Source: Candidatus Gastranaerophilales bacterium (GTDB lineage Bacteria; Cyanobacteriota; Vampirovibrionia; Gastranaerophilales; Gastranaerophilaceae). Taken from it: a stretch of DNA of 45,445 nt. Within the stretch, counting starts at the first letter, position 1. The number at the start of each line of letters is the position of its first letter. Shown here piece after piece: positions 23,988 through 28,628 of the stretch. Where the stretch lies: NCBI GenBank assembly GCA_944326515.1, contig CALVEI010000010.1, positions 1 to 45,445 on the forward strand, read 5' to 3'. The position numbers and the translations under genes are program-made. The notes beneath the pieces were generated by a model that was not told the origin of the DNA, made no database searches, and saw only the letters and a list, made by a program, of their open reading frames with translations.

Positions 23988-24431
23988 TTATTTTGCAGTT
24001 GCATTTAGGGTTTTTATAATATTGTCAGATATATCTGTTGCTCCATATAACGCATTGTTGCTTGTTAAAATTAATGCGTAAACACCTTTTTTACCTTCTG
24101 CATCAATTGCTTTTCTTACGTCATTTTCGATTGATTGTAAAGCAGCAATTTTGTCTTTTTGTAATTTGTCCATTTTTGCTTTTAATTCTTTAGCATATTT
24201 GTCTTCAAGCTTTTTTCTTTCTGCATCAGTAGTTGCTGCTACAACTTTCTTTTGTGCATCCACAATGAATACTCTGATGTCAGCTTCACGTTTTTGGAAA
24301 GTAGTGTTGATTGTTTCTGTTTTTTTGTAGCCTTTTAGAACCTTGTCTATGTCTACTGATGCATATTTATCAGCAGCAAAAACAGGTGTAGCCATTGCTA
24401 AAACAGCGATTAAAGTAAGTAATTTTTTCAT
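23988..24431 (-). CDS. Skp/OmpH family periplasmic chaperone
   Basis: 147 residues: a signal peptide (MKKLLTLIAVLAMATPVFAA, cleavage near Ala19-Ala20), then YASVDIDKVLKGYKK, the typical OmpH opening strand and helix, a long charged coiled coil (about 40-105, rich in Lys, Glu and Ala) and a closing strand VYALILTSNNALYGATDISDNI. Skp trimers hold unfolded outer membrane proteins in the periplasm, consistent with the lipid A genes nearby. AGAGAGAG upstream is the ribosome binding site. Confidence 0.9.
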   Translation of the reverse strand: MKKLLTLIAVLAMATPVFAADKYASVDIDKVLKGYKKTETINTTFQKREADIRVFIVDAQKKVVAATTDAERKKLEDKYAKELKAKMDKLQKDKIAALQSIENDVRKAIDAEGKKGVYALILTSNNALYGATDISDNIIKTLNATAK

Positions 24432-24540: not shown

Positions 24541-24858
24541 TTAATATTTAAAAGAGTCTTTTAAATTTTGAATAGCATCTTTTCTTTGTTGTTGTTTCTT
24601 TTTAATTGCTTCTTGTTGAGCTTGTTGTTGTTTTTTGTATTCTTCTTGTTTTTTTTGTAATGCTTTTTTGTCTTTTTCTCGTTTTTTTGCTGCTTCTTCT
24701 TGTTTTTTCTGGTATTCATTTATTTTTGCATCTTGTTTTTTAATGGCAGCATCACGTTTTTGTTGGTAATCTTGTAAAAAGTTTCCACTAGCTGCAAAAG
24801 AAGCTCCTGCTGAAAACATAAAAATAGCTGTTAATAAGATTGTAGAAAGTTTTTTCAT
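24541..24858 (-). CDS. Secreted Lys/Gln-rich coiled-coil protein
   Basis: 105 residues with a clear signal peptide (residues 1-23, ending SFAA before SGNF). The mature part is an almost continuous helix of Lys, Gln, Glu and Ala with few hydrophobics (QQKRDAAIKKQDAKINEYQ and similar), so it should form a highly charged single helix or coiled coil in the periplasm. GGAGG is well placed upstream. It sits next to skp on the same strand with its own gap, and may be a small chaperone-like or envelope-associated protein. That role is a guess. Confidence 0.75.
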   Translation of the reverse strand: MKKLSTILLTAIFMFSAGASFAASGNFLQDYQQKRDAAIKKQDAKINEYQKKQEEAAKKREKDKKALQKKQEEYKKQQQAQQEAIKKKQQQRKDAIQNLKDSFKY

Positions 24859-24915: not shown

Positions 24916-25086
24916 CTAATAATCTTCTGGAATATAAAAGTCTTTTTTATTCAGTTCTTTTCTTGTTTCTTCATAAGAATTAGTAGAACAGCAGATATTT
25001 TGATATTCTTTGACAATTGAAATTATGTCGTCTGTTGATAATCTTATAAGTCTGCGACCGTTTTGGTTTTCTATTATTGTAGCCAT
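24916..25086 (-). CDS. 56-residue small protein divergent from radical-SAM-like gene
   Basis: A short ORF with one of the best Shine-Dalgarno sites in the window (AAGGAGG, five bases before ATG 25084-25086). The N-terminal half MATIIENQNGRRLIRLSTDD is followed by a helix IISIVKEYQN, a Cys-Cys pair at residues 32-33 and a charged tail ending FYIPEDY. No family recognised. It diverges from the radical-SAM-like gene across 211 bp. Possibilities include a regulator, a partner or even a peptide substrate of that protein; the sequence alone does not decide. Confidence 0.6.
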   Translation of the reverse strand: MATIIENQNGRRLIRLSTDDIISIVKEYQNICCSTNSYEETRKELNKKDFYIPEDY

Positions 25087-25297
25087 TATTCCTCCTTGTG
25101 TGTTTTTTATCGGAATGTTTTTGAGCTACTTTAGTTAAATCATTTGTTGTGTTTAGAAATTACTTTTTATATTTGAATGTATATAAGAATATAGAATATC
25201 GATTAAGTCCTTTTATCCAACTGTGCAATTTATTAATTTTGCAAAAATGTTTAGAATTTCACTATTGATTTTGTATGTTTAAGGAGGGAATGTAAAA

Positions 25298-26152
25298 ATG
25301 AATAACTCTATTATTCAGGCTCAATGTGTTAATCTTAAGGAACTTAATCATTTATTTATAGATTTAGAATATGTAAAAGATCAAACAAAAAGTTTTAATG
25401 TGTATAGAAGTAGAAGTTTTAATCAAAAAAATAAAAAATACTTACAACTTGATGAAATAAAAGATGCCTTGTCTGAGGTTGATAAATCTCATTTGAAATA
25501 CATATATTTGCTTGGAAAAAATTCAATGTCTCATCCTGAATTTAATCATATCTTGCGACTTTGTCTTTCTTATTGTTCGGTTACAATTTTTTCTGATGGC
25601 AGTTGTATTAATGATAAGAAATCAAGATTTTTAAAAAGGGTTGAAGAAGAAGGAACTAATGAGATCATTTTCAAAGTAACTATAAATCATTACGATGAAA
25701 AGATAAATGATGAAATTGCAGGTAGAGGAGCTTTTAGAAAAGCTGTTCATGCAATAACGTCTTTAAATAAATACGGTTTTAATCCAATTTTAGTTATAAA
25801 AACTGAACCGTCTAAAATTGAAGATTTTAAAGAAGGATTTGCTGAGTTAGGTAAAAAATTTAGGTTTGAAACTGATGACATCAATTTTTCATTCATTTTG
25901 CAAGATAAATTTGAAGATGTTGAATCTTTTAATAAAAAACAATTACCGGTTTGTGATTGGAATTTAGATTGTATGACGTCAAGACTTCTTAGCAAATCAG
26001 GTATCTATAATTGTGCTGCACTTATAAATGATTACAGAGCCAGAAGTGGAGCTTCTCTTGGTGATTTTAGTAAAAAATGTTATTTAGAAACTGAAAAATG
26101 TTCTCAATGCAAGATGTTCGGACAAAGAATGTTCTGTAACAGTTGGGTTTAA
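25298..26152 (+). CDS. Radical-SAM-like protein with SPASM-type cysteines but no CxxxCxxC
   Basis: 284 residues. The order of elements resembles a SPASM radical SAM enzyme: LFIDLEY as first strand, YIYLLGKNSMSHPEFNHIL in the position of the GGEP motif, VTIFSDGS in the place of TNG, GRGAFRKAVHAITSLNKYGF as the usual helix, and a C-terminal set Cys261-x6-Cys268-x2-Cys271-x8-Cys280, with earlier cysteines at SGIYNC and LPVCDWNLDC. The CxxxCxxC that binds the radical-generating cluster is absent after the first strand, where VKDQTKSFNVYR stands. It is probably a degenerate, non-catalytic member or binds a different cluster. AAGGAGGG precedes the start. Function unknown. Confidence 0.6.
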   Translation: MNNSIIQAQCVNLKELNHLFIDLEYVKDQTKSFNVYRSRSFNQKNKKYLQLDEIKDALSEVDKSHLKYIYLLGKNSMSHPEFNHILRLCLSYCSVTIFSDGSCINDKKSRFLKRVEEEGTNEIIFKVTINHYDEKINDEIAGRGAFRKAVHAITSLNKYGFNPILVIKTEPSKIEDFKEGFAELGKKFRFETDDINFSFILQDKFEDVESFNKKQLPVCDWNLDCMTSRLLSKSGIYNCAALINDYRARSGASLGDFSKKCYLETEKCSQCKMFGQRMFCNSWV

Positions 26153-27950: not shown

Positions 27951-28043
27951 GGTCAATCTCCATTTACAAATATTTCAAAATATACTATATATAATAATAT
28001 AAAATTTATCTGTTTGTGATACAAAAAAGAAGGAGATTTGAAG

Positions 28044-28259
28044 ATGAATTATTACATTGGCGAAGCTGCTGGAAAAGTTTACGAATTTTTAGCTGATCAA
28101 AAAAACAACGAAGCTACTATTTCTAAATTAGAAAAAGAATTAGACTTGAACCAAAACTTTGTTTCTATGGGTATTGGTTGGTTAGCTCAAGAAGGTAAAG
28201 CTGATCTTTCTGGTAAAGGTGCTAGAACAAAAGTTAGATTAATCGAAGAAGTTAAGTAG
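28044..28259 (+). CDS. Winged helix-turn-helix protein (DUF2582-like), copy 1
   Basis: 71 residues from ATG 28044, eight bases after AAGGAG. A TTG six bases earlier would be too close to that site. The sequence MNYYIGEAAGKVYEFLADQK, NNEATISKLEKELDLNQNFV, then SMGIGWLAQEGKADLSGKG fits a small winged-helix domain in which the last part forms the wing (TKVRLIEEV). I connect it to the DUF2582 winged-helix family from memory. It is followed by its own terminator and by a near-identical paralog, each with separate signals. A DNA-binding or protein-binding role is likely; targets unknown. Confidence 0.85.
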   Translation: MNYYIGEAAGKVYEFLADQKNNEATISKLEKELDLNQNFVSMGIGWLAQEGKADLSGKGARTKVRLIEEVK

Positions 28260-28362: not shown

Positions 28363-28412
28363 AAACTCGTTATAAAATTTATCTTTATAAATTAGAAGAA
28401 GGAGATTTGGAT

Positions 28413-28628
28413 ATGAATTATTACATTGGCGAAGCTGCTGGAAAAGTTTACGAATTTTTAGCTGATCAAAAAAACAATGAAGCTACTATTTCTAAAATGA
28501 AAAAAGATTTAGATTTAGATCAAAACTTTGTTTCTATGGGTATTGGTTGGTTAGCTGGTGAAGGTAAAATTGATCTTGCAGGTAAAGGAGAAAGAACTAA
28601 AGTTAGATTGGTTGATGAAATTCAATAA
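28413..28628 (+). CDS. Winged helix-turn-helix protein (DUF2582-like), copy 2
   Basis: 71 residues from ATG 28413 after AAGGAG. Residues 1-28 are identical to copy 1, and the first 66 bases of the two reading frames are almost unchanged at the DNA level. Differences cluster in the recognition-helix/wing half: KMKKDLDLD for KLEKELDLN, GEGKIDLAGKGE for QEGKADLSGKGA. Its own promoter lies upstream and its own terminator downstream. The pattern suggests a recent tandem duplication or gene conversion, with divergence where binding specificity would be set. Confidence 0.85.
   Translation: MNYYIGEAAGKVYEFLADQKNNEATISKMKKDLDLDQNFVSMGIGWLAGEGKIDLAGKGERTKVRLVDEIQ

Follow-up and report, generated by a model that had tools for sequence, protein, structure and literature searches.

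A putative radical-SAM/Twitch pseudoenzyme conserved in a group of Gastranaerophilales genera

In three related genera of gut bacteria of the order Gastranaerophilales, a single-copy gene, which almost all other members of the order retain as a radical-SAM enzyme, lost its catalytic motifs on one stem branch and has been maintained under purifying selection. The reading we lean towards is that the 284-residue protein encoded in the window (the whole stretch of 45,445 nucleotides that was analysed, one contig of a Candidatus Gastranaerophilales genome) is a selected, catalytically dead pseudoenzyme. It would have arisen at a single-copy locus from a radical-SAM/Twitch enzyme that was once active, would carry a putative Fe-S site in its Twitch domain and would act by binding, sensing or electron transfer. 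An initial annotation, made from the DNA sequence alone, had proposed that the radical-SAM scaffold is used here without radical chemistry. This proposal is supported by the fold, the clade-wide loss of cluster and SAM residues, the purifying selection and the finding of no intact paralogue in the genus.

Both the 284-residue frame and the divergent 56-residue frame are present where they had been annotated (Table 1), each with a strong Shine-Dalgarno sequence ahead of its ATG (AAGGAGGG and AAGGAGGA, respectively). A scan of the window with Rfam returned nothing beyond one tRNA.

Table 1. Positions in the window of the two reading frames and of the residues discussed in the text
Feature	Position	Strand	Basis
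Putative pseudo radical-SAM/Twitch protein, 284 aa	25298..26152	+	Orthologue of order-wide single-copy gene; fold; dN/dS
Small protein, 56 aa, divergent, order-wide, not an obligate partner	24916..25086 (start 25086)	-	Found in 49/59 relatives, mostly away from the radical-SAM gene
Likely ribosome-binding site of the 284-aa ORF, AAGGAGGG	25281..25288	+	Read in the sequence
Residues 26-37, VKDQTKSFNVYR, replacing CxxxCxxCY; lost Cys positions 28, 32, 35	25373..25408	+	Cys in 131/131 distinct intact orthologues, 0/30 distinct clade members
Residues 36-50, YRSRSFNQKNKKYLQ, a conserved basic motif particular to the clade, modelled as disordered	25403..25447	+	Top-conserved 14-residue stretch of the clade; pLDDT <50 at 30-44
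Residues 73-77, GKNSM, replacing G(G/A)EP-M/L	25514..25528	+	E75, P76 in 131/131 intact orthologues
Residues 99-103, SDGSC: TNG to (S/T)DG, C103 gained	25592..25606	+	N100 in 131/131 intact; D100 in 30/30 clade members and L186
Twitch region, residues 222-275, with invariant C225, C239, C268, C271	25961..26122	+	All four invariant in intact orthologues, clade and L186

Fold and catalytic residues

The AlphaFold2 model of the 284-residue protein, which was based on 51 sequences, reached a pLDDT of 84 and a pTM of 0.82. Its predicted fold is a radical-SAM barrel with a Twitch/SPASM region, in agreement with the SPASM-type layout that had been read from the sequence. Foldseek gave BlsE, SkfB and MoaA as best structures, and VIA-align determined a Z of 15.9 for SkfB (rmsd 3.9, 217 residues aligned) and of 15.8 for BlsE (4.1, 235), with SuiB and PqqE as further matches. 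Residues 30-44 showed a pLDDT below 50 and overlap with the most conserved stretch of the clade. The Pfam Radical_SAM profile matched with 30.2 bits compared to a gathering cutoff of 29.5, and the match begins at profile position 21, that is, without the cluster loop. Together with this score, the partial (beta/alpha)6 barrel and the nesting among intact orthologues in the tree place the protein, by its descent and its fold, within the radical SAM superfamily. A sequence search of the PDB yielded matches to aldolases at chance level only, and these were discarded.

The alignment of intact and altered sequences comprised 191 rows, which represent 131 distinct intact orthologues and 30 distinct sequences of the altered clade, plus the separately altered sequence L186. 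CxxxCxxC and G(G/A)EP are present in the distinct intact orthologues. Intact relatives show CNxxCxxC(Y/F/W) exactly at the place of VKDQTKSFNVYR and G(G/A)EP at the place of GKNS, so that both the missing CxxxCxxC and the replacement of GGEP by GKNSM, as initially described, were confirmed. The CxxxCxxC for the SAM-binding [4Fe-4S] cluster is absent from 30 of the 30 distinct clade members, and among the SAM-binding motifs E75, P76 and S128 are lost in the window protein.

With a threshold of at least 95% invariance among the intact sequences, 42 positions count as near-invariant. The altered clade has lost nine of them (C28, N29, C32, C35, F48Y, E75, P76, N100D, which is always D, and S128), nearly all of which belong to the cluster and SAM motifs. 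In related enzymes, the cognate Ser contacts SAM and GGEP is located near the cluster (PMC10906245). Based on these motif roles and that of CxxxCxxC, the lost positions probably line the cluster/SAM site. The other 33 positions are kept, including all four Twitch cysteines.

The C-terminal C-x6-C-x2-C-x8-C of the initial annotation is literally present (C261, C268, C271 and C280), but it is not the conserved set: of the 30 distinct clade members, only one has C280 and 26 have C261. The truly conserved cysteines are C225, C239, C268 and C271. They occur without exception both in the clade and in the 131 distinct intact orthologues and follow the four-cysteine pattern described for the Twitch domain (PMC6231123). 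Their assignment as C-terminal auxiliary-cluster cysteines of the SPASM/Twitch type is in line with the alignment to SkfB, BtrN and PqqE.

Motif loss on a stem branch and subsequent purifying selection

The gene belongs to the single-copy core of the Gastranaerophilales: 369 of 383 genomes have it, as do 51 of 52 genera. In the genus of the window (g1), all 23 genomes carry the altered gene in one copy each, with full-length frames free of stops; since the same alteration is shared by all of them, it is not due to chance. Altered sequences also occur in the genera g45 (L164, L202, L204, L209) and g51 (L161, L200, L201), where some rows were assigned to the clade by the shared YRSR motif and an identity of 59-64% instead of by the tree. 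The search of the genus for paralogues with an intact CxxxCxxC, as suggested initially, revealed none: with an intact orthologue as query, the top match in each genome was this same locus, and the remaining matches were weak, partial and in other open frames. In the genome of the window, 22 matches to the radical-SAM domain were obtained, the altered gene included. In genus g45, tandem paralogues of about 200 residues (MKINFYGVKNAAALQTESGY...) were observed to follow the altered gene on the same strand (L077; also L074-L076).

In the tree of 106 rows, 22 altered sequences form one group with a support of 100/100, which is nested among intact rows; 1.94 changes per column fall on its stem. The three closest pairs showed a dN/dS of 0.066-0.111, which is a rough value because dS is at least 0.6 in every pair. 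Across all 30 distinct clade sequences, 98 positions are invariant. The most conserved 14-residue stretches of the clade, residues 36-49 and 37-50, lie right behind the lost cysteines in the YRSRSFNQKNKKYL loop. The loss of the motifs under yet strong selection indicates that the old enzyme was apparently put to another use.

Not only losses, but also gains were observed. C10, D100, R37 and R39 occur in 30/30, C103 in 29/30 and C261 in 26/30 distinct clade sequences, while all six are rare or absent in intact orthologues (C103 in 2/131). The conserved C10, C103, C261 and D100 could point to a new activity and not just to a role in binding.

A second loss was found in one species of genus g39 (L186, G241:C16:1228-2067). 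Its cluster loop reads KADSSSTFSYG, GGEP is changed to GLDP and TNG to TDG, and S128 is replaced by N; the open frame is complete with 288 codons, and all Twitch cysteines are kept. The roughly 25 other g39 genomes that were examined and in which the N-terminal part is present are intact. Seven of the eight losses of L186 fall on the nine positions lost in the main clade, with a chance probability of about 1e-5, or of about 9e-4 without the three cysteines, which were left out of the second figure because L186 had been noticed by their loss; since all positions were treated as equally change-prone, this overlap establishes that both losses emptied the same site, but says nothing about the reason. 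L186 could be a case of early decay in a single genome, and it is the positional agreement that makes it informative.

Gene neighbourhood

Of 59 relatives, 49 have the 56-residue protein, mostly at other places and with unrelated neighbours. It adjoins the altered gene in 23/23 genomes of the genus, in G033 and in loci of g45 and g51, and it is also located beside intact enzymes (L094, L098). Its model showed a beta-beta-alpha-alpha arrangement (pLDDT 79, pTM 0.55). No match was obtained in NCBIfam or the PDB, and an assignment to the Pfam family OKR_DC_1_N was discarded (E 0.059, below the cutoff). While the reading frame noted initially is real, the Cys-Cys pair, for which it had been highlighted, is confined to the window and its nearest relative. 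The frame is conserved next to the altered gene in the genus and the two sister genera and lies elsewhere in most other genera. A cassette of RiPP precursor and maturase comprises a small linked precursor, and this arrangement was not found, as the 56-residue protein is mostly unlinked and its Cys pair is not conserved. Altogether, the pairing looks like a shared neighbourhood in one group of genera, not like a partner system.

Two small secreted OmpH/Skp-like proteins (23988-24431 and 24541-24858, both on the minus strand) adjoin the 56-residue frame. In L126 and L158, a member of this family also lies immediately upstream of the intact radical-SAM gene, and the next genes there resemble flagellar fliI/flhA. 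On the plus strand of the window, two tandem and near-identical frames of 73 residues (NYYIGEAAGKVYEFLADQKNNEATISK..., 28038-28259 and 28407-28628) appear winged-helix-like by eye, and members of their family recur near the radical-SAM gene in 15 loci.

The intact gene directly adjoins pilO, with pilMN beyond, in 63 of 83 intact loci (59 convergent, 4 in the same direction), compared to 0 of 22 altered loci; these counts are not independent because the loci are related. Here, pilN was assigned by Pfam, and the name pilO is based on position and length only. Several intact lineages are also without the link to pilO. Pilus genes have been reported for Gastranaerophilales (PMC5877343). The frequent position beside pilO weakly hints that the ancestral substrate may have been part of the type IV pilus or envelope machinery, a tie drawn from the neighbourhood in related genomes, where the genes are mostly convergent. 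The idea that the gene was altered because type IV pili had been lost was rejected, as pilMN are kept in 22 of the 23 genomes of the genus. In the genome of the window, a sigma-factor-like gene, an rlmB-like gene (both assigned by eye), pilMN and pilO are ordered as around the intact genes, with the radical-SAM gene missing from this place. In 41 loci, a conserved protein of about 105 residues without a Pfam match is encoded directly upstream of the intact gene and after a comF-like gene (e.g. L112:2229-2543, plus strand).

Possible roles and comparison with known families

For the favoured pseudoenzyme, the following course can be envisaged. The selective loss of the [4Fe-4S]-SAM motifs on one stem branch would have converted a formerly active radical-SAM/Twitch enzyme. 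In the resulting protein, the Twitch domain may still bind an Fe-S cluster, and the conserved IN(D/E)KK-x-RFL helix region may still bind the ancestral substrate or partner. The basic YRSRSFN-KNKKYL loop could occupy or cover the vacated cluster pocket, and the protein would act by non-radical binding, sensing or electron transfer.

Another explanation would be that C10, D100, C103, C261, K27, R37 and R39 form a putative new site for a metal, a thiol or a ligand in the mouth of the old barrel, and that the protein is a neofunctionalised metalloprotein or enzyme with a new, non-radical activity. The near-fixation in the clade of six of these residues (all but K27), which are rare or absent in intact orthologues, and the long stem followed by strong conservation are consistent with this, but the second loss, L186, has D100 without C10, C103 and C261, and we regard this explanation as unlikely. 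The protein might also regulate another radical-SAM enzyme in the same cell or be a non-catalytic subunit of it, as in heteromeric enzymes with one cluster-less subunit. The 22 radical-SAM domain matches in the genome, the altered gene among them, and the retained scaffold and auxiliary cysteines would fit such a role; no other radical-SAM gene adjoins the altered gene, however, and the intact ancestral gene stands alone as a single copy, which makes this possibility rather improbable.

The initial suggestion of an altered scaffold forming a dedicated partner or peptide-binding pair with the 56-residue protein is slightly less probable still: the two are neighbours throughout the genus and in two sister genera, but the small protein is order-wide, mostly found elsewhere, also next to intact enzymes, and without a conserved Cys-Cys pair. 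Since the catalytic motif is gone, a decaying gene without function or an assembly artefact could be considered as well. For the main clade, this is refuted by the stop-free full-length frames in 23/23 genomes, the dN/dS of about 0.1 and the positions invariant in all 30 distinct sequences, and we give it hardly any weight; the refutation covers the main clade and does not extend to L186, a single genome.

A wider interpretation, which we put forward tentatively and hold clearly less probable than the pseudoenzyme as such, would be that a core radical-SAM enzyme was turned into a non-radical protein at least twice in parallel, with the auxiliary-cluster domain kept, the orthologues active and a new putative Cys/Asp/Arg site at the barrel mouth of the main clade serving a new function. 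If true, this would provide a natural before-and-after pair for the re-use of a radical-SAM barrel. Since the altered protein and the intact orthologue share their single-copy place across sister genera, the ancestral and the derived state are directly comparable. This comparison can show which parts of a Twitch radical-SAM protein stay under selection once radical chemistry is gone, and the binding roles of auxiliary-cluster domains and of the barrel surface in their own right become testable.

Named families of pseudo radical-SAM proteins already exist in NCBIfam. TIGR04150 and TIGR04347, which belong to other lineages, are radical-SAM-like and named pseudo for the missing cluster motif. The window protein belongs to neither: it scored 16.9 bits against TIGR04150 (curated cutoff 250) and gave no match to TIGR04347 (curated cutoff 525) up to an E of 1, and the intact L034 reached only 62.7 bits against the latter. 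Narrow searches of the open-access literature returned no study on pseudo radical-SAM proteins. The best-scoring named families for the window protein and its intact orthologues are the Rv1681 family and MftC (NF049973, TIGR03962), with 34.9 bits for the window protein and up to 112 for intact rows compared to a cutoff of 380.

Among characterised structures, the Twitch-type enzymes SkfB (6efn), BlsE (7vob), MoaA (1tv7) and BtrN (4m7t) align over 200-235 residues of barrel and C-terminal region with a Z of 12-16. They share four C-terminal cysteines with the Twitch domain of the window protein (PMC6231123), which, in contrast to them, is without CxxxCxxC, GGEP and the SAM-contacting Ser. SkfB additionally comprises an N-terminal RRE domain that is missing from the window protein. 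The closest comparison is offered by the intact Gastranaerophilales orthologues, which represent the same single-copy gene with an identity of 31-43% to the window protein. They share with it the Twitch cysteines and the IN(D/E)KK-x-RFL region, and differ from it in that the catalytic motifs are present and that their genes usually adjoin pilO.
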